From Siphonodentalium dalli (taxonomy: Eukaryota; Mollusca; Scaphopoda; Gadilida; Siphonodentaliidae), in the NCBI GenBank assembly GCA_032622095.1, contig CP136065.1, positions 249,053,474 through 249,117,473 on the forward strand: 64,000 nt of DNA, written 5' to 3'. Positions within the stretch are counted from its first letter, which is position 1. Each line of letters starts with the position of its first letter. Under the pieces are notes generated by a model. It saw nothing but the letters and a program-made list of their open reading frames with translations. It searched no databases and was not told the origin of the DNA. This document shows, in pieces, positions 9,227 to 53,484 of this stretch. A program made the position numbers and the translations under genes.

Positions 9227-9370
9227 ATCTACAACATCATCGTCAAACAGGAGCCAGAAGCCGTGGCTTTTGACGATACTGATGTAATGACCTCGATTAG
9301 GGCCACTTCCACAGTGTATCACAACAGCGACCAAGTCGTATAACCGGTCAGGATTTGTAGCATCATCAGA
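9227..9370 (-). CDS. USP12/46: USP12/46 exon with catalytic His and Asp
   Basis: Encodes 48 residues from [17 protein letters not shown] to [10 protein letters not shown]. It includes the His box [13 protein letters not shown] and the catalytic Asp in FDDD. The donor is GAT|GTAAGT and the acceptor ttattgcag. Both boundaries are phase 0. The first 32 exon bases and the acceptor are partly duplicated upstream in the intron (see 9339-9566). Confidence 0.96.
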
Positions 9371-9566
9371 CTGCAATAAAAATCATTATAGTTACACTCC
9401 GTATAACTGGTCAGGATTTGTAGCATCATCAGACTGCCATAAAAATCATTATAGTTACACTCCGTATAACCGGTAAAATCATTTTACCGGTAGTTACACT
9501 CGGTATAACCGGTCAGGATTCGTAGCATCATCAGACTGCAATAAAAATCATTATATTTACACTCAC
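9339..9566 (-). repeat. 63-bp acceptor-spanning tandem duplication (USP12/46 exon)
   Basis: Units start at 9339, 9402, 9465 and 9504. The first is the functional exon edge (32 exon bases, the ag acceptor and 31 intron bases). The 9402 unit is near-identical, the 9465 unit is a 39-bp remnant lacking the acceptor, and the 9504 unit is again full length. Each full unit keeps an intact AG after a T-rich tract in minus-strand reading. Confidence 0.9.
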
Positions 9567-9740
9567 ACACTGTGGAACATGAATGTAGAACTTACGTCAT
9601 GAGACGTCGTACAAGACCCCAACTTGCTTCCGAATGGTGTATATGCAACTTGCAACAAGCTACGAGAATAATGTTGGAAATTGGCGCTAAATGCTCTTTT
9701 AATCTGCCAGTTGATTCGGTTGAGTGTAAATATAAGTAAC

Positions 9741-10859
9741 TAGCGATGAGCCCGACGTTGTCCGGGCAATTAAAAACCAAATTTCAAGTCGATAGCTCTA
9801 CCCAGCCCGATGTTGTCCGGGCTATTCAAAAACCAAATTTCAAGTCGATAGCTCCACCCGTTTCCGAGATCTGGTCTGCGCAAGCGCGAAGCTGGCGTCG
9901 CACGGGCTCGGCGACCCGATAAAATTCGTATCCTGGGCAAGATACATTCACATACCAAATTTCAAGTCGATAGCTCCACCCGTTTCCGAGATCTGGTCTG
10001 CGCATGCGCGAAGCGGGCGCCGCACGGGCTCGGCGACCCGATAAAATTCGTATCCGGGGCAAGATACATTCACATACCAAATTTCAAGTCGATAGCTCCA
10101 CCCGTTTCCGAGATCTCGTCTGCGCATGCGCGAAGCTGGCATCGCATGGGCTCGCCAATACGACAACGTCCACCGCCTGGTCAAACTACACACACGTACC
10201 AAGTTTCGTCCCGATCGGTCGAGAATCGTAGATTTGTATAAATGACAGACAAACATACATACAAACAGACAAACAGACAGAGGTCTTCAAAATATATATG
10301 AGACTAGCCGATGAGCCCGACGTTGTCCGGGCTATTCAAAAACCAATTTTCAAGTCGATAGCTCTACCCAGCCCGACGTTGTCCGGGCTATTCAAAAACC
10401 AAATTTCAAGTCGATAGCTCCACCCGTTTCCGAGATCTGGTCTGCGCGAAGCTGGCATCGCACGGGCTCGGCGACCCGATAAAATTTGTATCCGGGGCAA
10501 GATACATTCACATACCAAATTTCAAGTCGATAGCTCCACCCGTTTCCGAGATCTCGTCTGCGCATGCACGAAGCTGGCGTCGCACGGGCTCGGCGACCCG
10601 ATAAAATTCGTATCCGGGGCAAGATACATTCACATACCAAATTTCAAGTCGATAGCTCCACCCGTTTCCAAGATCTCGTCTGTGCATGCGCGAAGCGGGC
10701 GCCGCACGGGCTCGCCAATACGACAACGTCCACCACCTGGTCAAACTACACACACGTACCAAGTTTCGTCCCGATCGGTCGAGAATCGTAGATTTGTATC
10801 AATGACAGACAAACATACAGACAGACAGACAAACAGAGGTCTTCAAAATATATATGAGA
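9741..10859. repeat. Dispersed repeat in two ~550-bp tandem copies with ~122-bp sub-repeats
   Basis: Two copies (9741-10314 and 10315-10859) each start 'gatgagcccgacgttgtccg' and end with 'acagacagacaaacagag' plus 'gtcttcaaaatatatatgag'. Within each, a GC-rich sub-unit containing 'tttcaagtcgatagctccac' and 'gggctcggcgacccgataaa' recurs two to three times. Its GC content contrasts sharply with the surroundings. The class is uncertain; the ACAGACAGAC-rich end resembles 3' tails of some interspersed elements. Long frames through it on both strands reflect the repeat rather than genes. Confidence 0.75.
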
Positions 10860-12165
10860 TGGATGTTGATTCCATTGAGGCAAGTTGATCTGACATTTTA
10901 ATGTTTGAAACGCTTTCGCATTCCACAAAAAATGTCAGACCAACTTTCATCGATACTAATGGAACGCAACCTAATCAACATCCATTACTTAAATAAATCA
11001 AGAAAGATCAGAGCATTATAAGAGAAGCAATGGCTATTTTTTAGTCATCAGATAATCTATTTTGAGTCATAAAAGGGTGCAACTCCATCAAAACTTACCT
11101 GAAATTTGAATTCAACCTGTACTATTCAATTGTTACCAATGTTAACTGCTTCATGAAATTCATTTCCACATTCTTCAATTTATCAACGGGACACAAGGGG
11201 CATAACCATATTAGGAACCATCGGAAATGACACAAACAACGTGCATTGTATCTTCATGATTAAAGACAATGTACAAAATATCATAAAATTCTGTTGAATA
11301 TTCAAGTTATCATGCAGAAAAGAAACTGTTTCAGAAGAATTGAGCATATACACACTCCTCTTATTACAGTCCCCCAAATTTCTGTTTGGGGGAACATCAG
11401 AAGTAACACATTTAAGAAGACCCCTGAACATTTTATAACGATATCCCACATCCATATCACATGTATGGCATATCACATGGGGCCTTGGTGGTAACGAGAA
11501 TCAAGCTGTAAATTTTTTTATTTCCATTCATTTCAGTTGAACATTTTTTTAAATTAATGACTAAAGGGTCTTCTACATTTAATTGCTATTTTAAAGCTAT
11601 ATAAAGTAAAGTAATTATCTCCAAACATTAGCTTTAGAACTTTGTTTAGCCTTTCTGTACTAAGAGGATTCTCCCACATATAAAAGTTATAAAAGTATAC
11701 TTTGGAATGGTCTATTATTTATCTGGAGGGATTTTCAGGAAAATTAAGCAGAGGCAGATAATACATAAGTACAGAAGGAGTCATTTTTATTGGAAGGAAA
11801 TGTTCAGATAATAAGATCAACAAACAACCTATGTCGAACTTAGTATCTGAACATTTCCTGATGGATAATTACTCGTCAATGAGTATTTAGTATTTAGAGT
11901 TAACACAAATGAATGGTGTGTCTCAAATTCAAATCTTTTCCAGTAAATAAAACAACTGCTGTAATAAGGAGCTTCACTATTCTGTACAACAAATAAGCTA
12001 CTCAGCTCATAAGTCGTCAAAACATTATTCTGCACATTTATACATGATCTACATGGCTCATTCATCAAACGCTATTCTGAATAAATGCTATCTCAAAAAG
12101 AAATGATGCTCAGTATGGTGTAACCAACCTAAGACAACTTTCAAAATGAAGACATAAATACTTAC
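10860..12165. other. USP12/46 intron sequence, no gene seen
   Basis: AT-rich intron between two USP12/46 exons. There are short inverted stretches: 'ccattgaggcaagttgatct' at 10873 opposes 'aatggaacgcaacctaatca' near 10959, and 'aggaaatgttcagata' near 11796 opposes 'tatctgaacatttcct' near 11844. These probably mark small MITEs. No exon-like frame is recognised. Confidence 0.4.
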
Positions 12166-12298
12166 TGTGTTGAAAAGCCTCAGCTCCAGAGGAAACACAA
12201 CCCTGTATGATAACTTTGTATATCTGTTAACATGTTCCATATATTTAAATCTTTTTAAATGTAAAGCTAGAATCTGTGGTAACTTTTTCACTCGCATC
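12166..12298 (-). CDS. USP12/46: USP12/46 exon (core palm segment)
   Basis: Encodes [18 protein letters not shown] then [20 protein letters not shown] and ELRLFNT. This is almost identical to the vertebrate [17 protein letters not shown] block. It begins in phase 2 (G completing an Arg codon) after gttgcag and ends in phase 0 at ACA|GTAAGT. The acceptor is single copy. Confidence 0.96.
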
Positions 12299-12746
12299 CT
12301 GCAACAAGATAAAACTTGTTTATTACATCTCTATTGGCAATTTATATATAATAAAGATTTTAAATATACAAGTGATAAAAACAGGTAAGCAGAGGTCGTG
12401 TCTGTACCATATTTATGGTGCCTCTGATCATCATAATACCCCATGAATAGATATTATCAACCCCATTACAATACATACATGTAGACCTACAGTTATTGGT
12501 ATTTCAAAAGTTAATATTGATAAACTGTCCTAATTCAGATCCAAAATAGTGAGTCAGAGAAGCTGAGATAGCCTTAGATTCTCTCTCAATGCTCATCATT
12601 TTCAAAACTAGTCAATGGGACGGGGACAGCTCCTCCCATACACACTCCCAACTCAGGCAATAACCCTTGGTGATGGTCAGAAAACAGGTGTCTCCAAAAA
12701 ATCATGCATCCATCCATGTGTTTGGTTTATATAAAATTAAGTAAAA

Positions 12747-13077
12747 GTTCGGACAACCACTATCGGAAACATTTCTGTTGTAAGAAGTAACCGGTAGTTG
12801 GACTGCACATGCTCACGCCAAGATCGCAAGTCCAAAAAAAATATCAAGCACTATTTGATTTAGATGCGAAATTGTGGCGTATCCTTGGTTACCTCCACTT
12901 GCGACATAATCGCAGTTGTGTGTACGTAAAAATTGTAGCTGGAAAGAGCATAGGGTAGTCAATCACATACTTATGAACAACCCATGATATCATCATCTAC
13001 GGCGACTTCGCAATCATGTGAACAAACTATCCATGATTTTGTCAGGCCCGATTCCTCCACTTACGATTGAACGTTCA
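12747..13077. mobile_element. MITE with GTTC(A/G)GACAACCAC ends, copy 1
   Basis: About 330 bp, closely similar throughout to 23534-23906. The termini (gttcggacaaccac, and ttacgattgaacgttcac at the right) are inverted, and internal blocks such as 'aaattgtggcgtatccttgg' are shared with the second copy. Non-coding, inside a USP12/46 intron. Confidence 0.65.
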
Positions 13078-13191
13078 CAAAGAGTTGTGTACTGCTTCAG
13101 GTTTTAGCATATTTATCTGCAGTACCAGTCTTAGCTTAAAATGATGTTTTGGTCAGTTGGTTTTTCAGTAAATTGGTTACTGATTACTGAC

Positions 13192-13352
13192 CTTTTCTGT
13201 GCCTCTTGCTTGCTGCAGCAGACTTCACAATAGTATTTATACTCAGAACAAAGTGTTTCTGTGTTACTGAATCCACGCAGACAGTGAGTTATTGAAGTGT
13301 TTTGCTCAACATCCACTGATAAATCGAGAAAATCTTCATCTTTACTGCTCAC
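13192..13352 (-). CDS. USP12/46: USP12/46 exon with second zinc-binding pair
   Basis: Encodes [20 protein letters not shown], then [20 protein letters not shown] and [13 protein letters not shown](R), nearly identical to vertebrate USP46. YCEVC supplies the second CxxC of the structural zinc site. The acceptor is tctcgcag and the donor AAAAG|GTCAGT, giving phases 0 and 2. It is single copy. Confidence 0.97.
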
Positions 13353-13399
13353 CTGCGAGAGAAAATAAATATTAATATAAACATATCACTTACATTTAA

Positions 13400-13673
13400 C
13401 CCTTCCATGACTGGTATATATGGAGCTTCCTGACATTTTGCGAAAACCCAGTGACAAATGCATTCTCTTATACATGTCTATATGTGTGTAGTCTCCCATA
13501 GGGAGCCTCGCATATAAGAGAATACATTGGCCTAACAATATATACCTTGACCTTGCAAGCCAGTGCATTCTCTTATATATACGAGGATCCCTATGTGAGA
13601 CTCGCAAATATAAGAGAATGCACTGGCACAGGATTTTTAATGCTGCACCAGCGCATCTCCCATCATGAAAGGG
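13400..13673. mobile_element. TTAA MITE family B, copy 1
   Basis: Flanked by TTAA (13396-13399, 13674-13677), with ends CCCTTCCATGACTGG and CATCATGAAAGGG. It contains two hairpins built on 'atgcattctcttata', related to but more diverged than those of family A. It begins about 45 bp upstream of a USP12/46 acceptor. Confidence 0.75.
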
Positions 13674-14023
13674 TTAAGAAATGACACACACATGTATAGA
13701 ATGGCTTACAAAATATGGATCTTCATGCAACACAAAATTGGGCTGTTTTCCAGTAACAAGTGCGTAACAAATATCGATAATGCCTAAAAACAAAATAGTG
13801 ATGTTTCCAGTGACCAAGGGGGAACAGGCAGAAATTATTTAATTTTTTTTTTGATACATCGATATATGGAGTATATTCATTCCCTAATATATGCCCCTGG
13901 CACCCCAAGAGGACATAATGAGCACATTACATTGTATTGGAAAGGATAATGAAGCCTTGGCAGTATTTTTTTAATAAAAAATGATCACAACATCAACTGC
14001 CGGTTGAACTGGCCCATATACAC

Positions 14024-15034
14024 TAGAGGTGCCACGATTATTGATTTTGATAATCGATCATCAATAATCGACTATAATCGATTAATCGTACCTAATAATA
14101 ATAACATCAGTGGAAGTATTCCGTAATCTGGCCTATTGCCATATTGGCTGGGTGCTGGTTAACTGCTATCGCTGCTTGTTTGAGGCAACGTCTGATGTAA
14201 TTTTTGTGTTAATAAAGACTAATGAGCACAATGTCTTCAATACAAGCACAGATCTCGGCGATGTCATGGTTATAATATTTGTGAGTTCATTGGAACGAAC
14301 GTAGCGATTAATTTAACAGCCAAACATACAAGCAAAGTAGGAATGCACAAAGGAATCTAATGTTACGGAAACTATAAGTTTCAGCGAACTTCCAGAGCAT
14401 GGATAACAATTACAAAGGTTGGCCCCCTCCATGCAAATTTCAGGACTAAGGACAAGTTAAGTATATGGTAATAGTCAATTTCATTTAGCAGTCACCACAC
14501 TATAAGCGATAGCCTGTACAGTACTAGTAACATCTAAGTATACTTATACAAACAAAGTATACTTGCTGCAAATGATACAGGGAGAATATCGCTGATTAAA
14601 ATGCTGTAGTTTCCCTGATTTTGAGAGAATGTCAATCAACTCCCCTTTGGGACAGTCAGCCCATTTCAAAGACATAGTGCCGTCTTTCTTGTAGAAATAT
14701 ACGATGTCGCATAAGTTCAAAGCTGCAGTACCGTCATGCAATTTGAAGATTATACAATGGCTCGAAGAGTAACCATGTCATCAAATGAACTGCCGGCTGT
14801 TTGCAACATATACTAGTAGTACTTAAGTTGTCGGAATCTCTTTGATACATTATCAAATGTTGTTAACCCCTAGGTTGTATATTAAACTGTGTAAAACAAT
14901 CAGGGTATTCAACATTAACCAACATTTTCCAACGTCAGAAATAAATAACGCAGATTAATCGACGATGGAAATGGTAATCGATTATCGGCTTTATCAACAG
15001 TTCATCGATTATACGATTAATCGTGGCACCCCTA
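14024..15034. mobile_element. hAT-type non-autonomous element, 8-bp TSD atatacac
   Basis: The element starts TAGAGGTGCCACGATTA and ends TAATCGTGGCACCCCTA. Perfect 8-bp direct repeats (atatacac) flank it at 14016-14023 and 15035-15042. An 8-bp duplication with T/CA-G-rich ends is characteristic of hAT transposons. Sub-terminal 'ataatcgatta' motifs recur on both sides. I recognise no transposase in the 1,011 bp. It lies in a USP12/46 intron. Confidence 0.85.
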
Positions 15035-15052
15035 ATATACACAAGGGCGTCA

Positions 15053-15380
15053 CCATCTTAAAACACTGACTTCCAGTGTAAATAATACAGATCGCGACTG
15101 ATCAACAAACTGTTTTACTATGATTAGAGATCGATGAACGTGATTTCTGTTGTTTTTTTGCGACTCGCCATCTTAAAACACTGACTTCCAGTGTAAATAA
15201 TACAGATCGCGACTCGCCATCTTAAAACACTGACTTCCAGTGTAAATAATACAGATCGCGACTCGCCATCTTAAAACACTGACTTCCAGTGTAAATAATA
15301 CAGATCGCGACTGATCAACAAACTGTTTTACTATGATTAGAGATCGATGAACGTGATTTCTGTTGTTTTTTTGTTTGCGT
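15053..15380. repeat. 49/115-bp tandem repeat
   Basis: The block 'ccatcttaaaacactgactt' plus 'ccagtgtaaataatacagat' starts at 15053, 15168, 15217 and 15266. The first and last copies carry an extra ~65-bp tail ('gatcaacaaactgttttact' onward to 'ttgtttttttg'). The motif acactgacttccagtgt is a small palindrome. It lies beside the right end of the hAT element. Confidence 0.8.
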
Positions 15381-15488
15381 TTAATAAAATTAGTAGGGGC
15401 GGATGTCTGGACAAGGGGCAGGTTACCGGAAACATCATTATTTAATTTTTAGGCCTAACTTCCAAAATACCAAGGGTGGTACACTTAC

Positions 15489-15613
15489 GGTTTCACAGTT
15501 GAGGCACCTTGTCTCGTTGGTCAAGGTTCCCTGGAATATGTCGTGCACCCACGTGGGATCTTTCCGACTGTTATTAGTCTGTGAGGTTTTTGTTTTGCCG
15601 CCAGTCTTTTCAG
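15489..15613 (-). CDS. USP12/46: USP12/46 exon with variable linker and first CxxC
   Basis: Encodes (A)EKTGGKTKTSQTNNSRKDPT, then WVHDIFQGTLTNETRCLNCET. The second half matches vertebrate DPTWV.EIFQGTLTNETRCLNCET. The first half is the poorly conserved polar linker of this family. Phase 1 start after atataacag, phase 0 end at ACC|GTAAGT. Cys164 and Cys167 form the first zinc-binding pair. Confidence 0.96.
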
Positions 15614-15900
15614 CTGTTATATGAATATAGGAACAAATACAGAGTTCATGGGGCTGATTATACGACATCTGTTTGACAGAAAGTAAATCTACATATTTTT
15701 ATCACATAATTAGCCCCTTCAGGGTTCCCACTATGAATTCAAAATGAAATTCAAGCACTTTTCAAGCACCTGGATATGTATTTTCAAGCACCATACTAGA
15801 ATAAGGTATATAGCTCAGGCAGTTAATAAAACCCAAAATTATTATCAATGGAAGGATACATTATAATAGAAACGGTAAAACAGATCAAATAATTATTTAC

Positions 15901-16502
15901 CTATTGGAAAACAACATATCCATGAGATTATCAGTGGCAGCCTGCTGAGTACAGTTCATTGCGAGTCCATTCATTGTTAAATAAACAACATATCCATGAG
16001 ATTATCAGTGGCAGCCTGCTGAGTACAGTTCATTGCGAGTCCATTCATTGTTAAATAAACAACATATCCATGAGATTATGAGTGGCAGCCTGCTGAGTAC
16101 AGTTCATTGCGAGTCCATTCATTGTTAAATAAACAACATATCCATGAGATTATGAGTGGCAGCCTGCTGAGTACAGTTCATTGCGAGTCCATTCATTGTT
16201 AAATAAACAACATATCCATGAGATTATGAGTGGCAGCCTGCTGAGTACAGTTCATTGCGAGTCCATTCATTGTTAAATAAACAACATATCCATGAGATTA
16301 TGAGTGGCAGCCTGCTGAGTACAGTTCATTGCGAGTCCATTCATTGTTAAATAAACAACATATCCATGAGATTATGAGTGGCAGCCTGCTGAGTACAGTT
16401 CATTGCGAGTCCATTCATTGTTAAATAAACAACATATCCATGAGATTATGAGTGGCAGCCTGCTGAGTACAGTTCATTGCGAGTCAATTCATTGTTAAAT
16501 AT
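15901..16502 (-). repeat. 74-bp tandem array with exon-like unit, 8 copies
   Basis: A 74-bp unit beginning acaacatatccatgagatta repeats from 15911 to about 16502 with very few changes. Read on the minus strand, the last copy encodes an open stretch (NCTQQAATDNLMDMLFSN) ending at a good donor, CCAATAG|GTAAAT (15901/15900). A possible acceptor, gtactcag, lies inside every unit. The phase does not fit as a cassette exon of USP12/46. It may be a captured or orphan exon; function is unknown. Confidence 0.6.
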
Positions 16503-17223
16503 ACACTTGCCCATGATTGTAAGGACCGAACAATGGAAAAATTCAATGGTTCATGCTCGATTAATTTTAATACAGGGCGCATCCATTTGTAATGCATGTA
16601 TTGCGCATGCTCGGGAATTACCGGAAATTAAGTTCGCGAAACGAAACTGAACTACTGCCGGTCTGATAACGTTGTATTGACGATCGCTAAATCTTTCGTG
16701 ATCGTCATTATCCTTAATGAATTAAGGCCATCTTCCCACTTAACATATAACAGTTTTGAATTCAAGCACTCATGCTCATTTTATTAAAAATCAAGCACTT
16801 TCATAATTTTCAAGCACCCGTACACTATGGCACCAAAACTCTATTCTAATACAAGGAAATCTTAAAATGACCTCCATAAATTTCACGTATGAAGAAGTTT
16901 CTGGTGGAGCATTATATGTATCAGATGCTATTCATCACATATCCAGGGAAGATAACCCCAACAACCTATTGTGCTGATATATCAATCTTGATGCCTGTTT
17001 TCAGAAAAAAGTGGCACTTTTAAAACCACATTATATTTCTTACTAAATCAGACTAAATCAAAATTTAATGGTATCTCAATTAATCAAACTGACTAGATAA
17101 TATATTTAAACTTATTAAATGGCCAACATAGAGTGCGCTCTGTAAAACATTTTTTTCATCTATTCCACCATAGAAAGATTTAAATCCCTTTTCAGATGAC
17201 CGTCTGTATAATAGATAAATTAC

Positions 17224-17304
17224 CTTGCAGCAAGTCAGCTACAGTGTTGAGTAAGTAGTTGAGGAATTCATGGGCATCTTGTTGCATATAGTTATCAAAC
17301 ACAG
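17224..17304 (-). CDS. USP12/46: USP12/46 exon: QQDAHEF block
   Basis: Encodes [18 protein letters not shown] and NTVADLLQ, the conserved USP segment after the Cys box (human [20 protein letters not shown]). It enters in phase 1 after ttttctag, leaves in phase 1 at CAAG|GTAATT, and joins EKTGG through a shared Ala codon. The 5' 20 exon bases and acceptor are duplicated once upstream. Confidence 0.96.
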
Positions 17305-17359
17305 CTAGAAAACAAAACAAATACATATAGTTATCAAACACAGCTAGAAAACAAAACAT
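17285..17359 (-). repeat. 39-bp acceptor-spanning duplication (USP12/46 exon)
   Basis: Two near-exact copies of catatagttatcaaacacag plus 'ctagaaaacaaaaca' at 17285 and 17324. The first is the functional exon edge (20 exon bases plus ttttgttttctag). The second repeats exon bases, acceptor and polypyrimidine tract further into the intron. Confidence 0.9.
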
Positions 17360-18562: not shown

Positions 18563-18782
18563 CATTTTCTTTTCGTAGTCTTGTAATAAACTTTTTAGGA
18601 GCTAAGGTGCCGACTTTCTTCTTTTGGGTTGCTATACTGTAGAACAGGTCACCAAGGCAACTTAATAAAGTCTCTTTTTTTTGGTTTTTAAACTGCTGCT
18701 TGAATTGTAGAACTTTTTCTCTAAAAGGACGGCAGAAGTACAAGGCTTGTAGCACAGAGTTGCAGTAGCACGTGTTACCAAA
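18563..18782 (-). CDS. USP12/46: USP12/46 exon with catalytic Cys box
   Basis: Encodes 73 residues starting [20 protein letters not shown], with the nucleophile in GNTCYCNS, and ending [12 protein letters not shown]. This matches vertebrate [20 protein letters not shown] and PPKKFI.RLRKEN. The acceptor is atatttcag. The donor is the less usual ATG|GTTTGT; it keeps phase 1 into the next exon. The exon's first 40 bases plus acceptor are present three times in tandem. Confidence 0.96.
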
Positions 18783-18932
18783 CTGAAATATATAGAGAAC
18801 ATGTTTTAGGCTTGTAGCAGAGTTGCAGTAGCACGTGTTACCAAACTGAAATATGTAGAGAATATGTTTTAGGCTTGTAGCAGAGTTGCAGTAGCACGTG
18901 TTACCAAACTGAAATATATAGAGAATATTTTT
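18743..18932 (-). repeat. 63-bp acceptor-spanning triplication (USP12/46 Cys-box exon)
   Basis: Units start at 18743 (65 bp, functional), 18808 and 18871 (63 bp each). Each holds 'aggcttgtagcagagttgca', 'gtagcacgtgttaccaaact' and the acceptor region gaaatat. The two upstream copies lack the 2 bp (ca) found in the functional exon, so they could not be used in frame. Confidence 0.92.
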
Positions 18933-19208
18933 TTGACGAATTCAGAATATGAGAATTCTCATGCGAGGGTACAAGCAAATACCGATTTTCCACGAGTGGC
19001 TTACCGCGAGTGGAAATCGGTATTGGCTTTTACCCATGAATGAGAATTCTTTTATTCAATCAAAAGTCCTATCATACCAAATTGGTTACTTGGACATATT
19101 TATCCAGATCCAGATAATGCCAGTACAAACATTGCAGATGTTCTTTAGGACAAACTTTTTATAAGGATTGGAAAATGGATGAGATCATATGAGTACAAGT
19201 ATTACATG

Positions 19209-19886
19209 CAGACCTGTTTACTTTCCCGTAAATGCGGTCTTCAATGTCCAGACAAGGATTATAATATATCAAACAAGAAGCCATCCTTTTTTTAATAAAG
19301 TGTTTCTGTTCGTCCCGACCGACTGCTTTAAAATCGGCGACTCAAATTATTATATTGCCGATTTAAACTTTTTGTTTGTTTTTGTGTTGGTGAAAGTTCC
19401 GTCTTTGTGGTTTCCGTGTTTTGCATATGCAATAACAGAACGCGAATCGAACGGACCTCAAACAATTCTGTCAATGCCTATTCTCTTTAAATTCACCGAT
19501 GTTACCTGATGTTACTGAATATATTTTGCGACAAAATTATCCGAGAGCACCATTTTATAGCGTGCAAATATAGTTTTAATCGTTGTATTGCTTGTTCGAA
19601 ATAAAACGTGATCCATAACCGGAAAATCATAATTTTATTCCCAATGATTCAGTGATTTTAGAAATTAGATACTCTCCGTGTCAAGGCCGTTAATTATGGC
19701 AGATGCAAACCAAATACAACAAACAGTCTATGTGGCATTTAAATAAAAATATGAAGTTTTCTCCATGATACTGACATTGAAAAAAATCTCCCTATTTTTC
19801 ACTAAATCTCCCTATTTCTGAGGACAAATCTCCCTATTTCTGAGGATAAATCTCCCTATTTCCAATTTTGAAAGTAAACAGGTCTG
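19209..19886. mobile_element. hAT-type MITE, CAGACCTGTTTACTTTC ends
   Basis: The left end CAGACCTGTTTACTTTC is repeated in inverted form at the right end. The 8-bp flanks attacatg (19201-19208) and attgcatg (19887-19894) match at 7 of 8 positions, as for an aged hAT target duplication. A 106-codon frame from 19189 runs through it but resembles no protein I know. 'aaatctccctattt' repeats four times near the right end. Confidence 0.75.
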
Positions 19887-20414: not shown

Positions 20415-20495
20415 GTTGACTAATCCAAAGTAGTGCTCATTAGCTGGAAATTGCTCTGAGCCAATTTCTTTCTCCAATTGGGATGCATTGGCACC
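20415..20495 (-). CDS. USP12/46: USP12/46 first visible coding exon
   Basis: Encodes [16 protein letters not shown], then [11 protein letters not shown], matching vertebrate [26 protein letters not shown]. It is phase 0 at both ends, acceptor ttttttcag and donor AAC|GTATGT. In USP12 the residue before GANAS is Met, so the start codon lies in an upstream exon that I could not identify in the ~9 kb to the right. Six acceptor copies precede the exon. Confidence 0.95.
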
Positions 20496-20930
20496 CTGAA
20501 AAAAAGAAGAATTAAATATAAATAAATTATGTATTATCATGTGGAGATTGAGGATATATAATTGGCACCCTGAAAAAAAGAAGAATTAAATATAAATAAA
20601 TTATGTATTATCATGTGGATATTGAGGATATATAATTGGCACCCTGAAAAAAAGAAGAATTAAATATAAATAAATTATGTATTATCATGTGGAGATTGAG
20701 GATATATAATTGGCACCCTGAAAAAAAGAAGAATTAAATATAAATAAATTATGTATTATCATGTGGAGATTGAGGATATATAATTGGCACCCTGAAAAAA
20801 AGAAGAATTAAATATAAATAAATTATGTATTATCATGTGGAGATTGAGGATATATAATTGGCACCCTGAAAAGAAGAAGAATCAAATATAAATAAATTAT
20901 GTATTATCATGTGGAGATTGAGGATATAAT
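20487..20930 (-). repeat. 74-bp acceptor-spanning array, 6 copies (USP12/46)
   Basis: Units at 20487, 20561, 20635, 20709, 20783 and 20857 are spaced exactly 74 bp apart and are nearly identical. Each contains the minus-strand polypyrimidine tract and acceptor (ttcttctttttttcag) with the first nine exon bases (ggtgccaat). Only the leftmost copy continues into the real exon. Confidence 0.93.
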
Positions 20931-23203: not shown

Positions 23204-23533
23204 TGTTAATATAAACCACCATGACTAGCTAAAGTAACGCTGAAGGGGTCACTCTCACCAAAAGAAGTGCTGAAGGGTACACAGGTTTTGAAAATATGCT
23301 GAAGGGTACCGGCACACAGGATTTGAAATCTCGTTCTAAATGATGTTTAGTTCTTGTATCTGCCATGATTTATGTTAGAGAATAATTGTTTACGTTCCAA
23401 TGAACATATCAAAATGAACTGAAAACAAACTGCTGATGGGCGCCAGACTTTCAGAAACAAACCCTGTGTACCCTTCAGCACATTTTGAAACCCTGTGTAC
23501 CCTTCAGCACTTTTTTTAGTGAGAGTTAATGAA

Positions 23534-24599: not shown

Positions 24600-27500
24600 A
24601 ACTGCATTTTAAAGCAAATATGACAATTATATCCACTGAAATAATATACAAGAAAGTTAAATAGTAGCCCTTTAATCACCTACAGTTAGTGGTAGCGTTA
24701 TATTTGATATATTGCCAAATTTATGCTCAAATTAAACATGAAATAGGTGACACGTGCGACTTTTACGTCTCCTTATTTCGACGTATATTTCGTAGCCTGC
24801 GGTATGAAGACGTCAACATCGTCTGTAGACTGTATCTGTAGTGGGTTCAGTGCAGTAATCATTTCATGATTTGTCTCCATCCTCCTCAAACATACGAAGC
24901 ATATATAGCCTGTATATTGCATTACGTCCAATACCAGTATCAGCACTTGGAACACCAGGAATTGACCAAGAACGTGTTCTCTGGAATATCCCAAGTGGGT
25001 GGAACTCGGTAGCCGACCCGAGACCACGGGGAACTTGTAGCAAAAAAATATTGAAATATATAACTCGTATACATGCCTAAGGGGGGGGGGGGGGGGGGGG
25101 GGGACATTAGCGCAGTACGGCCTTCAATGTTGATTTTCTGACTCGATGCACCGATTATGGTCGGATAAACGGTATTGTCGCGTATATTGCTACTTTCAAA
25201 AGTGATAGAAACCCTCCTTACCATGTACAATGCTGTAGAATGCCGATATAAACCTGTTTTATACTTTCAAGTGGTAGAAATCTTTCTAATCGATGCATAA
25301 ACATGGCCCGAATCGCCATTAATCGTGGCAACATATAATGCCCTCTTTCTGTTTGGTCGATATTCACGTGGCTTTGTTTACGAAAACACGGTCCGAAGAA
25401 AAAAAACATTGTCCGAAAAAGAGTCACATTTACTAATAGATAGGGGAACACCGTGTGCGTAACGTCACTATCACAAGTATAACGTACTCTGATAACAACT
25501 TATCGCCAATATCATGCTTAAGACATTTTAAACATATCATTTTCGGCTTGTACTAGTATTATTTTATTTTTATGAAAATGATTAACAAATGGGGTGATAA
25601 ATATATATAACATCAAATTGGCCATTTTCCCGTGAAACTTGGGACAGGTAAGCAAGGTGCAAAACTTGGTCGAATCTGAGTACGAACGTCGGGAGTGTTC
25701 CCCTATCGTATTGCGATAATCACCAACCGTGGAGTGCATGTTAATGCGGTGATTTGAAGCAATTTTCTCACTTCAAAGTATACCCAAGTTGTTTTTGGAC
25801 ATTCCACTGCATTTGACAGTGTAAGGAGGTTTTCATTCACTTTCGGAAGAAGAAAAACAAGTGACAATGCCGTTTACGCGGCCATAATCGGTTCAGTGAG
25901 TCAGAAATGCAACGAATTTAGGGAATCGGAAACCGAAAGTTGTCTAGCCTTGTCTTATATATGCATATTATGCAGCCCTGGCAATTCAGATTTGTTTGCT
26001 ACGGCAGTAGAATGCCGTAGCCAATTTGATGTGCTTCGGCAGTGACTACGGCATTTTTACATCCTGTGAAAACATGTTGTTTAATTGCTGTTTTGTCAAC
26101 ATTTGTATGACTAATCATAAAACGTTTACAAGAAGATGTGTACTATCTATTTTTTTCCTGGAATATATAAATCGTTTATGTGATACCCACTAAGAGTAAC
26201 CAGAACCACGGCCGTGGGATCGAATGACTATTGAATAATGACAGAACTTGCCATGCCCCGTTGTGAAATTAAATTATGCAGTTTCTTGAATGACGTTGCT
26301 TCAAAATGGCAAATTCCTTATTTCAAACTCTGTCACCAACCAGTATAATAAACCTGGACATGGATACATCATACCTGATTATCAGTCGTAAAGTTACGGG
26401 CACTTAGATGATTGGAATAGCAAATAAAACAAATATGTTTATACAATTTAACACTCAACGGTAAATAATCATAATGCGCGAGAACTCGTGACAAAGTGTC
26501 AAACATCAAAGCACTTATCAGGAACCGGCTGTCAGAATATATCACTGACGCACGTCAATCATTAGTGTGAAGTCCCGCCTTCCCCCAAGTTGAAACGAAT
26601 CGGCTCACTCGATTGGTTAAATTCAATTATCTGTCATCGTGAGCTACAAACATCTGCACTGATATTCAGGTATGATTTCTCTATGTCCAGTGTACAAGAG
26701 TTGCACCTTATTACAATTACTATTATATATGCAATTTAACCCACACCAGATGAAGGTAAAGAAGATAAAATTTATTTCATACGAAATAATTGATTAACAT
26801 GCACAGAAATAATAAACACCGCAGTGCACCGATGTCAAAGATCAATGTTGTTCACTGTGAATCAGGCGAACTAAATTCAATTCTTTGTTGGGAGAGGGGC
26901 CACCTTAAGTTGTTATAACTTGTCCCCAATCCCTTAAGTTGTTATAAATTGTCCCCAAAATCCCTTGTAAATTGAGTTACAATAAATATGTTTGAACCAA
27001 ACATACTTTAACGGAGTTTACTGACTTCAATAGATTGTCACATCACTGATCAGCAGCTGGCTGACCTATTTCCATCAATTAAACTCTGTTGTATTTGTAT
27101 AACCACGTGCCCGTGTGTATATATGTCAAGGATGCGACAGTCACTCACGCGTAACGGTAAACCCACATCACTCATTGGTCTTTGACACATTGTGATCAGA
27201 TCGCATGTGGGTACAGCGTTTTTGCTACAATGTTAACGCGTGTGTCCAGACTGGCTGCAATGCTACACCGTGACTAAAATACTATTTACTGAGCTGTACG
27301 GAGTGTACCAACTTTCTTGTAAAGCGCGGTGCACCTTCAAAGAAGCCGACATTGTCGATTATCCGGGATTGTTGAATTGACGCAGGGCTGCTAACATAAC
27401 TTGGATTCAATTTCATGGTGAATTTGTCACTTACCTTCGAGTTCCCGGTAGTCGGTGGTCATCAGCTACATAACTGTTTTAATCGAGGTATTTCTTTTGT

Positions 27501-29478: not shown

Positions 29479-30142
29479 TTAAAGTTACTCGGCCGTGGTA
29501 GCACATCGACCAGTGTGTCTATAACCAGAACTTGTACCTGCACTGAAATATATACAGATATACAGATCCAAATTTGCGAACATCTTGGGTTTTCAAATTG
29601 CCAAGAACCTGTTCATAACCTTTCTTTCATGAAAAAATCAAGAATTCTGGATTCAAATACACCCCATGTTCACCCGACATTGTGACAATTAGGGAGTGAA
29701 CATCCGCAGGGAGCTTTAAGAGGGAGGTAAAGTGGTAACATTTCGATGGGGAATTCAGTTTTAATTTTCTGGTAAAGTTCACTAAAATGTTACAAAGTGT
29801 AGGTGACCATATCATATCTTATTGGAGAGGTTGAATGCTTATAGTGATAGAGCAGTTTTGATTTTTGACCCAGTTTGGATATTATTAGGAAGTAGGTTAA
29901 CAGTACATGATTGGGATATTATAACCATAATTAAATAATCTTTTACTAATTAAAATGTACTATTACTTCCTTGAAGCAGAAACTAGACAGTTTTTGCCCA
30001 ATTTAATGCATTAAAATTTAAGCAGCCACCCGATTCGTCGTAACCTGACCCTTTTTCCTCCAATAACACAACTTAACAAAATCACAATCAATTAATGTTT
30101 TGCCCGAGTTAATATCTTCAATCACCTTTTTCAGATTGAAAA

Positions 30143-30271
30143 ATGACGAACACCAAAGGTTACAGGAGGGGTACTCGATACCTCTTCTCGAGGCAGTTCA
30201 GGAAGAAGGGCCCAATTCCACTTTCTACTTATATGAAAGTCTACAAAAGGGGAGATATTGTTGATGTGAAG
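30143..30271 (+). CDS. RPL21: RPL21 first coding exon
   Basis: Encodes 43 residues: [43 protein letters not shown]. Human is MTNTKGKRRGTRYMFSRPF and so on. The exon begins at 30135 after cctttttcag, with eight untranslated bases before the ATG, and ends in phase 0 at AAG|GTATGT. ATG 30143 is the first in the exon and matches the family start exactly. Confidence 0.97.
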
Positions 30272-31765: not shown

Positions 31766-31878
31766 GGTACAGGTACAGTGCAGAAGGGCATGCCACATAA
31801 ATATTACCATGGAAAAACTGGTAGAATCTTCAATGTTACAAAGCATGCTGTTGGTGTTGTCGTCAACAAGAGAGTGGG
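31766..31878 (+). CDS. RPL21: RPL21 second coding exon
   Basis: Encodes [20 protein letters not shown], then [17 protein letters not shown] and two bases of a Gly codon. Human has [20 protein letters not shown]. The acceptor is tttatttttcag and the donor GTGGG|GTAAGA. It leaves in phase 2, fitting the G that begins the next exon. Confidence 0.97.
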
Positions 31879-32539
31879 GTAAGAACAAGTCACAACTTAT
31901 CAAATACTGGGGCATGCCACAAATAATAATTGATTTAGGCTGCTATTATATATATATAAATCAACAACTTATATTTGATAATCACCCCATTTTATGAACC
32001 CCAATATAAATTACCTAGTATACAAATGTATAAAACAGATGACATATTGCCATGCCAAGTTATTTTTGATTCATGGTCGAATTTCAATCTGAATTTTTAC
32101 GGGGAAGATATTTTGTGCCTACATCTTAAAGTCTTGACAACTTGAACTTCTGTCCCAAAACTAACGAGATGAAATCAGTCTTTGAAATTGGTCGTGGAAA
32201 ACGCTGTGGCAACATGTGTAATCCAACATGCCACAGCATTAAATTTGCCATGGGACATTTTTCCCAATTTCGAGGGCTGCATATGAGAATTAAATTGATG
32301 CAATTGGGGACACTGATAAAAACATGATTTAAATAATTTAATTTACTACATCCAGCAAGCTTATTTGATTTTAATCACCCCATTTTATAAACGCTAAAAA
32401 GTAATAATTACCTAGTAATATATAAACATATTGACATAAATAAAAAAATCCAAACTGATGCCCACAGAAAAGTCTTGACAATTTGAATTTTATCCCAAAG
32501 CTAACAACATAAAATAATCAAGAACTGAGCAATTAGCAT

Positions 32540-33075
32540 CATTATACCCCCACAATTAGCATCACTATACCCCCACAATTAGCATCATTATACCCCCACA
32601 ATTAGCATCATTATACCCCCACAATTAGCATCATTATACCCCCACAATTAGCATCATTATACCCCCACAATTAGCATCATTATACACCCACAATTACATC
32701 ATTATACCCCCACAATTAGCATCATTATACCCCCACAATTTGCATCATTATACCCCACAATTACATCATTATACCCCCACATTTAGCATCATTATACACC
32801 CACAATTAGCATAATTATACCCCCACATTTAGCATCATTATACACCCACAATTAGCATCATTATACCCCCACATTTAGCATCATTATACACCCACAATTA
32901 GCATCATTATACACCCACAATTAGCATCATTATACCCCCTCAATTAGCATCATTATACCCCCACAATTAGCATCACTATACCCCCACAATTAGCATCATT
33001 ATACCCCCACAATTAGCATCATTATACCCCCACATTTAGCATCATTATACCCCCACAATTAGCATCATTATACAC
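32540..33075. repeat. 23-bp minisatellite, left half
   Basis: About 22 copies of a unit like 'caattagcatcattataccc' plus ccca, with scattered a/c and length changes. The array is interrupted by the hAT element and resumes at 37986. Confidence 0.9.
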
Positions 33076-37985: not shown

Positions 37986-38435
37986 TTATACACCCACAAT
38001 TAGCATCATTATACCCCCACAATTACATCATTATACACCCACAATTAGCATCATTATACCCCCATAATTAGCATCATTATACATCCACAATTAGCATCAT
38101 TATACACCCACAATTAGCATCATTATACCCCCATAATTAGCATCATTATACATCCACAATTAGCATCATTATACCCCCACAATTACATCATTATACACCC
38201 ACAATTAGCATCATTATACCCCCACAATTAGCATCATTATACCCCCACAATTACATCATTATACACCCACAATTAGCATCATTATACCCCCATAATTAGC
38301 ATCATTATACACCCACAATTAGCATCATTATACCCCCATAATTAGCATCATTATACATCCACAATTAGCATCATTATACCCCCACAATTAGCATCATTAT
38401 ACACCCACAATTAGCATCATTATACACCCACATTT
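37986..38435. repeat. 23-bp minisatellite, right half
   Basis: Continuation of the array at 32540-33075: about 19 units of the caattagcatcattataccc type, some with 'ccccata' or 'catcca' variants. The two halves were one array before the hAT insertion. Confidence 0.9.
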
Positions 38436-47120: not shown

Positions 47121-47122
47121 TG

Positions 47123-48922
47123 GGCCAAAACAAGAACTTCTCTGTTTCCGATAACACTGGGAAAAATGTTCAGATTAGCAGGCAGCGATTTTTATTTTTT
47201 TTTATTAAACATTTCAGCCGTAAGCCATATAATAGTGTAGTCACAGTCCCATGGAATATGGTAGATCCATATGTATTGATAAATGGCCAAACATTGGATA
47301 AAAACATGTTGTCCCTTGAATTCATTCACTCTGAAGTAAGATCTCTACCATCGTTGAGCTTAACTACCAACTTATATTTACTTTTGGGATAGGGATAAAC
47401 GATAAATATTCACATTGACACTCTTAACAGGTAACTACTGTTATGCCCTAAGTAAATGGCCCATCTAACTGAAGTGGCACCCCAGTTTAACTGCGTTCCG
47501 TTTTAACCTAACCGCGGTTATAAGATGCGTTTAAAACGCAAGAGAACCGAATCAATTGTGCGGTTAAAACGGATTCGTCGCGGTTAAACCGGTATATGTC
47601 GCTCTTAATGGAACATATGGCGTGTCATGTTTTAGTTGCCATGCTTGTTAGACAAGTTAGCACAAATAACATGCCAGTGTCCCTTTCAATATTTTTTGTT
47701 GTGGATCTTCTATGTATTTTGGATAAATAGAACAGACATTCATATACCAATATTTTATGTTTTTGGGTTAACGGAAGATTGTGATGTATGGTGTGAAAAA
47801 ATAAAAGTGTTTTTGTGTGTTTTATTTATTTTTGGATTTCTTTTTATTATAATGTTGTATACTTTATAGTAGCCTTTTGGTGAAAATAACAGTTGGGCTA
47901 ACCCCGATGGGTAATCAGAATCCTTACGGCCCATTTTCGACTTTTAACCATCGATAAAATAAATATTTATATAATTATATATAAATATAATTATTCGACA
48001 ATTTAGCTGACGAGTGCCGGTCACTTTCAATGTAAGGAAAACGCGTTTAAAATGGAACAACCGCAAAACGGAAAAAACGCATTCAAACGGATCAAATGGC
48101 CACTGAATTTCAAACGGATTCGAGTGGAAAATTATATAAAAATATAAAGTGGGGGTTAGAGTCCCACACATGCATCATAAATGTAAAGTGAGAGAAATAA
48201 TACATAGTCACAAAATGCGTTTAAACGGAACAACCGCACTCTTCAAACATCGGGCATTATTCGGATATCGGAAACCCGATATTTAAATTTTCCGATCTTG
48301 CATTCGTTGCTATATAATCATAATTAACTACAAACGTGACACGCCAGCTAGATTCGCGAAATTGCGTATGTACTATTACTAGTATTAAATTCAGCACTCT
48401 ACTTTGCTTCAAACATAAGCATGTATTTTTTCACAAGCCGAACAACGGACGTATACTAGAACATATACGTCAAAATTATAAAGTTTTCAACAAGTCGGGA
48501 TTAAAACATAAAATATATCGTGTTGAGTACCGATGGTGATAACAAAAACATACAATCAACTCCTGGTCGATTATAAAGTTACCACTTTGCCGTGATCGCT
48601 AAAACACAAAACGATAACATACACTGGTAGATGCATGGGTAGTACCCCTCTCTTTCCCATTAAATATTCAAATACTGGAAGGTTAACGTTTACATGCGGT
48701 GTAACCGCAGTTAAGGGTTATTAACTGCTGTAACCTAACCGCATGTAACTGCAATGCCACCGCAGTTACGGCAAATAACTGCGGTGCGGTTACGGTTTAA
48801 CCGCAGTTGTAAACGGATTATAACTGCAGTTAATGGGTCATTTACTTAGGGCATAACAGTATATAGACTAGCCTTCTGGCCAGGCAGGGTATCGGAAACA
48901 GAGGTTTTGTTTTGGCCGTATA
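47123..48922. mobile_element. Two nested inverted-repeat elements
   Basis: Outer arms ggccaaaacaagaacttctc (47123) and the inverse ending gaggttttgttttggcc (about 48917). Within them, 47438-48859 has its own ends CTGTTATGCCCTAAGTAAAT and ATTTACTTAGGGCATAACAG, each next to TA, as in Tc1/mariner-type insertion. The inner element is rich in gttaaaacgg and accgcagtta motifs. No transposase is recognised. Confidence 0.6.
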
Positions 48923-49282
48923 CGCACCTTTTATGTGGATAACATTGTCCTACCTATGGCGGTATACTGTTCATGTTTTGATAATAAAATATATCTAGAT
49001 TAAAATCTGTTGAATATTTTAAATTCTTGTCATGGTTATTAATATTGGTATGTTGAGTGCCAACTGCCATTTAATAACATGTAAAAAAAAATAATGAAAT
49101 AATGTGCACTTTGTACTCACTGAATGTGTACAGCAGCAATTTTCGTACAATTTGGTTTTGTGTGGATCGTAAATGAAAATATCTCATTGTGAAAGTCTTG
49201 GGATATAATTATCTGGGCTGGTAAGCCTAACTTTCAGCACATAAATGTATATGTGTATATTTTTCCCTCATTTGTTTCAAAT

Positions 49283-52205
49283 AATTCACCTTTATCTTAA
49301 CAGGCATCGAATCATCCCCAAGAGAGTCAACTTGAGGGTTGAGCACATAAAACACTCTAATAATCCACCTTTATCTTAACAGGCATCGAATCATCCCCAA
49401 GAGAGTCAACTTGAGGGTTGAGCATATAAAACACTCTAATAATCCACCTTTATCTTAACAGACATCGAATCATCCCTAAGAGAATCAACTTGAGGGTTGA
49501 GCATATAAAACACTCTAATAATCCACCTTTATCTTAACAGACATCGAATCATCCCTAAGAGACTCAACTTGAGGGTTGAGCATATAAAACACTCTAATAA
49601 TCCACCTTTATCTTAACAGGCATCGAATCATCCCTAAGAGAATCAACTTGAGGGTTGAGCATATAAAACACTCTAATAATCCACCTTTATCTTAACAGAC
49701 ATCGAATCATCCCTAAGAGAATCAACTTGAGGGTTGAGCATATAAAACACTCTAATAATCCACCTTTATCTTAACAGGCATCGAATCATCCCTAAGAGAA
49801 TCAACTTGAGGGTTGAGCATATAAAACACTCTAATAATCCACCTTTATCTTAACAGGCATCGAATCATCCCTAAGAGAATCAACTTGAGGGTTGAGCATA
49901 TAAAACACTCTAATAATCAACCTTTATCTTAACAGGCATCGAATCATCCCCAAGAGAGTCAACTTGAGGGTTGAGCATATAAAACACTCTAATAATCCAC
50001 CTTTATCTTAACAGGCATCGAATCATTCCCAAGAGAATCAACTTGAGGGTTGAACATATAAAACACTCTAATAATCCACCTTTATCTTAACAGGCATCGA
50101 ATCATCCCTAAGAGAATCAACTTGAGGGTTGAGCATATAAAACACTCTAATAATCCACCTTTATCTTAACAGGCATCGAATCATCCCTAAGAGAATCAAC
50201 TTGAGGGTTGAGCATATAAAACACTCTAATAATCCACCTTTATCTTAACAGGCATCGAATCATCCCTAAGAGAATCAACTTGAGGGTTGAGCATATAAAA
50301 CACTCTAATAATCCACCTTTATCTTAACAGGCATCGAATCATCCCTAAGAGAATCAACTTGAGGGTTGAGCATATAAAACACTCTAATAATCCACCTTTA
50401 TCTTAACAGACATCGAATCATCCCTAAGAGAATCAACTTGAGGGTTGAGCATATAAAACACTCTAATAATCCACCTTTATCTTAACAGGCATCGAATCAT
50501 CCCCAAGAGAATCAACTTGAGGGTTGAGCATATAAAACACTCTAATAATCCACCTTTATCTTAACAGGCATCGAATCATCCCTAAGAGACTCAACTTGAG
50601 GGTTGAGCATATAAAACACTCTAATAATCCACCTTTATCTTAACAGGCATCGAATCATCCCTAAGAGAATCAACTTGAGGGTTGAGCATATAAAACACTC
50701 TAATAATCCACCTTTATCTTAACAGGCATCGAATCATCCCTAAGAGAATCAACTTGAGGGTTGAGCATATAAAACACTCTAATAATCCACCTTTATCTTA
50801 ACAGACATCGAATCATCCCTAAGAGACTCAACTTGAGGGTTGAGCATATAAAACACTCTAATAATCCACCTTTATCTTAACAGGCATCGAATCATCCCTA
50901 AGAGAATCAACTTGAGGGTTGAGCATATAAAACACTCTAATAATCCACCTTTATCTTAACAGGCATCGAATCATCCCTAAGAGAATCAACTTGAGGGTTG
51001 AGCATATAAAACACTCTAATAATCCACCTTTATCTTAACAGACATCGAATCATCCCTAAGAGACTCAACTTGAGGGTTGAGCATATAAAACACTCTAATA
51101 ATCCACCTTTATCTTAACAGGCATCGAATCATCCCTAAGAGAATCAACTTGAGGGTTGAGCATATAAAACACTCTAATAATCCACCTTTATCTTAACAGG
51201 CATCGAATCATCCCCAAGAGAATCAACTTGAGGGTTGAGCATATAAAACACTCTAATAATCCACCTTTATCTTAACAGGCATCGAATCATCCCTAAGAGA
51301 CTCAACTTGAGGGTTGAGCATATAAAACACTCTAATAATCCACCTTTATCTTAACAGGCATCGAATCATCCCTAAGAGAATCAACTTGAGGGTTGAGCAT
51401 ATAAAACACTCTAATAATCCACCTTTATCTTAACAGGCATCGAATCATCCCTAAGAGAATCAACTTGAGGGTTGAGCATATAAAACACTCTAATAATCCA
51501 CCTTTATCTTAACAGGCATCGAATCATCCCCAAGAGAATCAACTTGAGGGTTGAGCATATAAAACACTCTAATAATCCACCTTTATCTTAACAGGCATCG
51601 AATCATCCCTAAGAGACTCAACTTGAGGGTTGAGCATATAAAACACTCTAATAATCCACCTTTATCTTAACAGGCATCGAATCATCCCTAAGAGAATCAA
51701 CTTGAGGGTTGAGCATATAAAACACTCTAATAATCCACCTTTATCTTAACAGGCATCGAATCATCCCTAAGAGACTCAACTTGAGGGTTGAGCATATAAA
51801 ACACTCTAATAATCCACCTTTATCTTAACAGATATCGAATCATCCCTAAGAGAATCAACTTGAGGGTTGAGCATATAAAACACTCTAATAATCCACCTTT
51901 ATCTTAACAGGCATCGAATCATCCCTAAGAGAATCAACTTGAGGGTTGAGCATATAAAACACTCTAATAATCCACCTTTATCTTAACAGACATCGAATCA
52001 TCCCTAAGAGAATCAACTTGAGGGTTGAGCATATAAAACACTCTAATAATCCACCTTTATATTAACAGGCATCGAATCATCCCTAAGAGAATCAACTTGA
52101 GGGTTGAGCATATAAAACACTCTAATAATCCACCTTTATCTTAACAGGCATCGAATCATCCCTAAGAGAATCAACTTGAGGGTTGAGCATATAAAACACT
52201 CTAAT
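49283..52205 (+). repeat. 79-bp acceptor-plus-exon array, 37 copies (RPL21)
   Basis: Exon-edge starts run from 49304 to 52148 in exactly 36 steps of 79 bp. Each unit holds 21 intron bases (aatccacctttatcttaacag) and the first 58 exon bases, coding (G)HRIIPKR(V/I/L)NLRVEHIKHSN. Only the last unit runs on into the rest of the exon. Copy 1 retains ataattcacc upstream, probably the original acceptor context. No length variation is seen across 2.9 kb, implying recent or homogenised expansion. Reading through from any earlier acceptor meets TAA in the following spacer. Confidence 0.97.
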
Positions 52206-52298
52206 TGCCGTCTGGATTTCTTGAAACGAGTTGAACAAAACGACAAAATAAAGGCTGAGGCAAAGGCTGGTGGTCCAAGACTAATTCTGAAACGACAG
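52148..52298 (+). CDS. RPL21: RPL21 third coding exon
   Basis: Encodes (G)HRIIPKRINLRVEHIKHS, then NCRLDFLKRVEQNDKIKAEA and KAGGPRLILKRQ. Human reads [20 protein letters not shown]. It starts in phase 2 at the 37th acceptor of the array and ends in phase 0 at CGACAG|GTATGT. A dispersed MITE begins only about 10 bp past the donor. Choice of the last acceptor is forced: any earlier one adds units with in-frame stops. Confidence 0.96.
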
Positions 52299-52307
52299 GT
52301 ATGTACC

Positions 52308-52638
52308 ATAGAGGATCTCACATGAGTTTCTATTTTATACGGAATTTATCAACCGAGTTCACTAAATTCGATTTGAGCCGAGGTTTACCGAGGCTCAAAT
52401 AGAATTTAGAGGACGAGGTTGATAAATTACTTATAAAATAGGACGAGTTTGAGATACCTTTTATCACATGATCAAATAAACCCGAAGCAACGCGAAATAT
52501 TCATCGAAAACAACAATCATAAACTACAGCGATCGCAAGTGATTTGAAGAACGCCGTGACGTCATCGCACGCGCTGATATTAAACGTGTCTATTACCGAT
52601 AATTATGAAACTGCTTTTATGGCCAAATTTTGTGATAA
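52308..52638. mobile_element. MITE with nested hairpins, copy 1
   Basis: Nearly identical to 62395-62715. Contains 'ttcgatttgagccgaggttt' opposed by 'gaggctcaaat(a/c)gaattt', and arms 'tctattttatacggaattta' and 'gataaattacttataaaata'. Placed at the very start of the last RPL21 intron. Confidence 0.7.
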
Positions 52639-52816
52639 AATGAGTTACTTCATCATGCTATCTTTTTTTTTTACAATTTGTTACAAAATAGAAGTTTTCT
52701 ATTGACAAATTAACCTACCTTTACAAAAATATGGAGATAAAGAAACAACTAAGTTTGACGGCCAGCTTATATATGACCCGCCATATCAAATCCAGTCGTA
52801 AGTCGGGATTTTTTTT

Positions 52817-53333
52817 ACCCTGTGCCAATTCATTCTCTTATATATGCGAGTCGACCATAGGTCGCCTCGCATATATAAGAGAATGCATTGGCCTAATAAT
52901 TTTTTACAATTTTAATAATTTTTTCTTGTATTCTTTAACAATTTTAATAATTTCACCCATACAGAGCCCCAGACAAACATGAGCAGACGACACTCTTCTA
53001 TGTGCTTCTATATATGTGTGGGGCTCCCTGGAGAGTAATGCATGTTTTTTATTTTATGTCCTAAAAATTGTAAGAAACATTTATTTAAAATAAAATGATA
53101 AAAAATTGTTAGGCCAATCCATTCTCTTATATATGAGAGGCGACCTATGGTCGACTCGCATATATAAGAGAATGCATTGGCACAGGGCATAACTGTAACT
53201 ATCACAATGTGGTCAATGAGCCGGTTCCAATGATATCCATATTTGTATGGTTCTATTGAGACGGACCCAAGATAATTTAGGCTGTTGCAGCTTCATTTGG
53301 GCTATTTTTCTGGGCGTTTTGTTGGGTAAAGGG
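52817..53333. mobile_element. TTAA MITE family A, copy 4, with nested hairpin element
   Basis: Inverted relative to copies 1-3: it ends gttgggtaaaggg + TTAA at 53333. Both 66-bp hairpins are present (about 52824-52890 and 53113-53182). Between them a gagcccc...ggggctccct hairpin (about 52966-53032), related to the 3.8-6.4 kb satellite unit, has been inserted. The left terminus is missing. Confidence 0.7.
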
Positions 53334-53340
53334 TTAATTC

Positions 53341-53484
53341 ATTAATTTAACTTATTTACATTTAAGCTTGGTGGACATATAGTCAACACGAGGAGGAACG
53401 CTCCATATTAATTTAACTTATTTACATTTCAGCCTGCTGGCCCTCTTGCTGGACATATAGTCAACACGAGGAGGAACACTCCAA
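53341..53484 (+). repeat. Acceptor-spanning duplication at RPL21 last exon
   Basis: 'attaatttaacttatttaca' plus ttt occurs at 53341 and 53407. Each is followed by exon sequence ggacatatagtcaacacgag plus gaggaac. The upstream copy has aag in place of cag and lacks about 12 exon bases, so it is a decayed duplicate. Confidence 0.88.

Follow-up and report, generated by a model that had tools for sequence, protein, structure and literature searches.

Tandem duplications across 3′ splice sites of two neighbouring scaphopod genes, and why acceptors might be favoured

Whether the junction between an intron and the exon that follows it can be a favoured place for small tandem duplications is the question raised by a 64,000-nucleotide stretch of the genome of the scaphopod mollusc Siphonodentalium dalli (assembly GCA_032622095.1, contig CP136065.1, positions 249,053,474 to 249,117,473; the whole stretch is the window referred to below, and coordinates are counted from its first letter). 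It carries two neighbouring genes, USP12/46 and RPL21, in which six of the twelve acceptors (3′ splice sites) that were placed, and none of the ten donors, are tandemly duplicated. This count, the central claim of a first-pass annotation, was borne out both by array detection and by a clean split in alignment scores. The reading preferred here, with a probability of roughly 0.55, is that the arrays are minisatellites of the type termed ‘mirages’ in amphioxus, that each came from a local duplication followed by growth, that it is mainly the last copy that is spliced, and that such duplications are likelier to start near 3′ splice sites that are in use, or near exon starts.

Six arrays that cross an acceptor

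Four of the eight acceptors in USP12/46 and two of the four in RPL21 are affected, and the copies at a site number from 2 to 37, as first described:

20487..20928, minus strand: array before USP12/46 exon 20495-20415; 74-bp spacing, 6 copies, exon part 9 bp in each copy
18743..18933, minus strand: array before USP12/46 exon 18782-18563; 63-bp spacing, 3 copies, exon part 40 bp
17285..17358, minus strand: duplication before USP12/46 exon 17304-17224; 39-bp spacing, 2 copies, exon part 20 bp
9337..9564, minus strand: array before USP12/46 exon 9370-9227; spacings of 63 and 102 bp, 3 copies, exon part 34 bp
49280..52205, plus strand: array before RPL21 exon 52148-52298; 79-bp spacing, 37 copies, exon part 58 bp
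53341..53483, plus strand: duplication ahead of the final RPL21 exon, 53433-53521; 66 bp from acceptor to acceptor, 2 copies, exon part 51 bp

The arrays were found with Tandem Repeats Finder together with a lag scan, and the copies were then aligned with AG in register, the lengths of the exon parts being derived from the array ends. The duplications at 17304 and 53433 are absent from the Tandem Repeats Finder list; the lag scan detects both. Measured spacings match the unit sizes given originally (39, 63, 63, 74, 79 and about 66 bp), to which the 102-bp spacing at 9370 has to be added. AG is kept in every copy so aligned at the six arrays. The units at the six sites are unrelated to each other in sequence, in support of the earlier view that the events were independent, i.e. 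that there were six separate local tandem duplications, each taking in the end of an intron and the start of the following exon. Some of these founding duplications grew into arrays, in one case of 37 copies.

At 18782 both upstream copies share a 2-bp deletion, and at 53433 a deletion in the upstream copy removes 12 bp; the coding copy has neither deletion. In the 37-copy RPL21 array the first copy has two private variants and the last is of the common type, a mixed picture in respect of the homogenisation of mirage clusters, which spares the units at the boundary. Variable positions are of similar density in the intron part (3 of 24) and the exon part (7 of 55). Among the 55 exon bases examined five of the eight exonic changes are synonymous, compared with an expectation of 22-35%, and the copies look as if they had originated at the coding end or undergone exchange with it, a pattern that is suggestive and is not used in the argument that follows. 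That assembly error created or inflated the arrays is a very remote prospect: one amphioxus mirage was indeed aberrantly assembled in a genome draft (PMC3087553), but the present copies differ from each other by substitutions as well as by insertions and deletions, and there are two-copy cases (17304 and 53433).

Unaffected junctions

The junction set consists of twelve acceptors (eight in USP12/46 and four in RPL21) and ten donors (seven and three, respectively), the first coding exon of USP12/46 and 5′ non-coding exons, with their donors, lying outside it. Donor points used in the score and chance tests are accurate to about 2 nt of the splice point. For the score test the 40 bases around a junction were aligned locally to the 400 bases on each side, with 2000 random positions for comparison. 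Scores are 41-80 for the six affected acceptors, 15-19 for the six others and 13-19 for the ten donors; for the random positions the median is 17, and 17.5% of them reach 40. No recognisable copy is present within 400 bp of acceptors 15613, 13352, 12298, 8171, 30135 and 31766, or within 400 bp of any of the ten placed donors. Given so clean a gap, there is no half-decayed class to blur the count of six in twelve.

The array at 15909-16505 was considered as a seventh acceptor case and rejected, as a possible 42-bp exon there, judged by eye, runs into a stop when read in the flanking exons' phase. This array (eight copies of a 74-bp unit, within a USP12/46 intron) has an end that coincides exactly with a donor-like G|GTAAAT.

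Excess over background

Small arrays are common in the window, which in its 64 kb holds 27 with a unit of ≤130 bp (score 24), 21 of them away from acceptors, and regional coincidence is the first alternative to be weighed: in a repeat-rich genome with frequent duplications in these two genes, the window would have drawn attention because several happened to fall on acceptors, 3′ splice sites as such playing no general part. Chance tests were run in four settings on the 64-kb window, all of them post hoc and drawing on two neighbouring genes. Arrays cover 11-17% of the window, from which 1.4-2.1 acceptors would be expected in arrays as against the six observed; across settings the binomial P is 0.001-0.010 and the rotation P 0.001-0.006. 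With units of ≤130 bp (coverage 16-17%, about two acceptors expected) these values are 0.007-0.010 and 0.004-0.006, and with units of ≤90 bp (coverage 11%) both are about 0.001. P values that are just of this order, and the choice of the feature after it had been seen, in two adjacent genes, are on the side of coincidence. A count of founding events is nevertheless preferable to coverage, because growth of an array swells coverage, while for a junction to be duplicated it must have lain within the founding segment. For the twelve acceptors that model expects 0.25-0.33 hits (lambda) rather than six, the Poisson P of six being 3e-7 to 1.4e-6. With this shortfall, and with the other six acceptors and the donors being without partial copies, coincidence is a possible explanation and not the probable one.

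Acceptors are in excess above background in this window, on tests that are post hoc, and what the tests say is ‘not background here’, not ‘genome-wide rule’; the earlier word ‘systematic’ claims more than two neighbouring genes can show. Donors at the background rate would yield about 0.26 hits (0.313/12 x 10), and none was observed. Since zero is what background itself predicts, only the direct contrast between acceptors and donors carries weight (Fisher one-sided P 0.012). The earlier statement that no donor is duplicated holds for the ten placed, and as an exclusion of donors it is weak, both from this low expectation and from the donor-side case of amphioxus BflGb9, where the 3′ boundary of exon 2 is duplicated (PMC3087553).

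Origin of the acceptor preference

That copies lie towards the intron, with the intact exon last, was part of what had been taken to imply a special process. The description is true at all six sites and is uninformative: when an intron end and exon start are duplicated together, it is always the final copy that continues into the remainder of the exon. The orientation is thus forced by geometry, and any acceptor-crossing tandem duplication looks this way. The other suggestion then made, of selection tolerating only this configuration, does not hold, as tolerance alone cannot lift acceptors above neutral DNA. Of two equal donors in a human reporter library, the one that came first was chosen in most cases (PMC6783452). 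If this human rule is assumed for the present animal, a duplicated donor would mostly leave the mRNA intact, which suggests a tolerance of donor duplications no lower than that of acceptor ones.

Acceptor-like sequence was tried as a cause and rejected. In the 21 arrays away from acceptors such motifs show no enrichment (mean rank p 0.57 and none below 0.05, the lowest being 0.055 at 57948 and 0.083 at 19804), and scores from the acceptor weight matrix, itself built from only 12 sites, overlap between affected acceptors (2.3-12.2) and unaffected ones (1.1-13.8). Sequence alone is therefore an unlikely cause, and the remaining ones are a process linked either to acceptors that are in use or to the starts of exons, or the regional coincidence already discussed. 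Paused polymerase, R-loops or nucleosome edges can be offered as guesses at an acceptor-linked process. In the parts of PMC11718197, PMC8724738, PMC4039745 and PMC10946897 that were covered there is nothing bearing on the cause of an acceptor excess.

Under the preferred reading, the founding events would have come from the same error-prone local duplication that gave the window's other small arrays, presumably end joining or slippage with little homology. Homology at the joints between copies is slight. It was taken from run length versus spacing in the lag scan, which gives values for three of the six acceptor arrays: an extra 4 bp at 17304 and 2 bp at 20495, and an overlap of 3 bp at 52148. 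The joints of four non-acceptor arrays are alike (overlap of 1 at 57948 and of 5 at 53556, extra 1 at 23459 and extra 2 at 26903). The simplest view is of a single class of mutation, in which local duplication lacking long homology is followed by expansion, with slippage or unequal exchange the likely means of growth. The likeliest reason for the preference would then be that duplications arise at a raised rate near functional 3′ splice sites or the starts of exons, those that spoil coding sequence being subsequently lost. A more far-reaching proposal, that in this genome working 3′ splice sites are duplication hotspots by way of a process coupled to transcription or splicing rather than to sequence alone, that the same process has arisen or persisted independently in amphioxus and that it feeds intron growth, perhaps even intron gain, is tentative and on balance doubtful.

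Use of the last copy

To judge from the sequence, splicing would be mainly to the last copy, the sole one joined to the full exon, and the upstream copies would thereby have been turned into intron. Reading from upstream acceptors meets stops at 20495, 9370, 53433 and 52148 (5 of the 37 copies being examined at the last), so normal protein from these four sites needs the last copy. At 18782 and 17304 such reading is open and gives in-frame extensions. The upstream acceptors are near-equal in sequence to the last one, with weaker ones at 9433 and 53367.

Several points weigh against the preferred reading. The open extensions at 18782 and 17304 leave room for use of upstream copies there. More generally, two equal acceptors in the human reporter library were used without order preference (PMC6783452), and a rule of that kind, combined with near-equal upstream acceptors, would predict mixed splicing. 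Finally, the evidence on the cause of the acceptor excess comes from two neighbouring genes, and that cause is unproven.

Alternatively, the arrays might be kept for a function, with the acceptor copies recruiting splicing factors or, as unproductive splice sites, lowering gene output. The retention of AG in all copies aligned accords with this, as does the finding that most upstream copies would lead to stops, which unproductive splicing needs. Against it are the lack of relationship between units at different sites, the range of copy number from 2 to 37, the open extensions that two of the six sites would give, and the similar variation of intron and exon parts in the RPL21 array, by which splice signals are not specially kept; in sum, function is improbable. 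With 37 acceptors that are almost identical, all ahead of a single exon in a housekeeping gene, the RPL21 array is a natural experiment in spliceosome choice between equal 3′ splice sites.

Relation to known systems

Amphioxus mirages are tandem repeats across exon-intron boundaries, at either boundary; regular splicing was found undisturbed by reverse transcription polymerase chain reaction, and the repeats are unstable in length (PMC3087553). In BflGb6 minisatellite-like duplications involve the 3′ end of an intron and the 5′ part of the exon, with 6 and 3 units in two haplotypes (PMC3087553), making it an acceptor-side case like the six arrays. Common to these and to the mirages of Adh3 (the earlier cases), BflGb6 and BflGb9 are a boundary-spanning unit that differs by site, retained splice signals and variable copy number. 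In all six arrays the exon-intron boundary is within the unit with AG in register, and units of 39-79 bp fall within the overall reported range of 10-160 bp, though they match neither the 10-72 bp of Adh3 nor the 150-160 bp of the globins exactly (PMC3087553). Differences go beyond size. Mirages were reported from cephalochordates, whereas the present arrays are outside Branchiostoma; the donor side is hit in BflGb9 but at none of the ten donors placed here; and for a density of six in twelve acceptors in two genes there is no counterpart in the mirage literature covered.

The same anatomy is seen in somatic tandem duplications across the acceptor of NOTCH1 intron 27/exon 28, e.g. one made up of 70 bp intronic and 26 bp exonic sequence (PMC6160438, PMC9355983). 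Those duplications are somatic, cancer-selected and read in frame into the protein (PMC6160438, PMC9355983), whereas the present arrays are germline and would bring stops at four of the six sites. As a group they do not fit the in-frame NOTCH1 type, reading being open at 18782 and 17304 alone. The minisatellite of the human interferon-induced gene 6-16, which supplies several splice donors and whose copies are used in transcripts, also multiplies a splice site, but on the donor side.

The structural kind has already been described, and the novelty lies in the lineage that carries it and in how densely acceptors are hit. Human tumour duplications apart, no boundary-spanning arrays in animals outside amphioxus were found in the open-licence literature searched, which is no proof of their absence in print. 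Were acceptors in another animal lineage, distant from amphioxus, duplicated at a rate far above that of neutral DNA, mirages would be no oddity of amphioxus, and a splice-site-sensitive mutational process would be testable on public genomes.

Genes of the window

The two genes, placed by translation and homology, are divergent in orientation:

20495-20415, 18782-18563, 17304-17224, 15613-15489, 13352-13192, 12298-12166, 9370-9227, 8171-8073, minus strand: USP12/46 coding exons
30135-30271, 31766-31878, 52148-52298, 53433-53521, plus strand: RPL21 exons

In the USP12/46 tree the window is among ten lophotrochozoan rows with support of 93/95, just under the program's mark, and is separate from Branchiostoma. 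In that for RPL21 two Branchiostoma rows are set off from all else (100/100) and the window is loosely beside Octopus (83/86), most deep forks being unresolved. The top identities are with two gastropods for USP, at 90%, and with a bivalve for RPL21, at 75%, figures from which near records may have been left out. Among genome contigs 24 stretches matched a pattern for RPL21, and none of the 24 encodes a relative. The adjacency of the two genes (8073-53521) is also suggested by the names of relatives' genes in Batillaria (BaRGS_00004839/00004838) and Solemya (ScPMuIL_011067/011068), and likewise in Ridgeia and Paralvinella, which suggests an old gene neighbourhood.

Other repeats and reading frames

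Within the 20-kb RPL21 intron an open frame at 34385-36154 matches, just above cut-off, a hAT transposase dimerisation region. Another, at 55352-55969, matches the N-terminal domain of a tyrosine recombinase (Phage_int_SAM_1) and probably belongs to a mobile element. One dispersed repeat of the window has no exact match among viral contigs. The array at 3769-6372 has 26 copies of a 100-bp unit, and to the eye this unit is similar to dispersed sequence around 8630-8700 and 52960-53030. Two arrays 5 kb apart in the 20-kb RPL21 intron, at 32530-33073 and 37986-38432, have apparently the same 23-bp unit.

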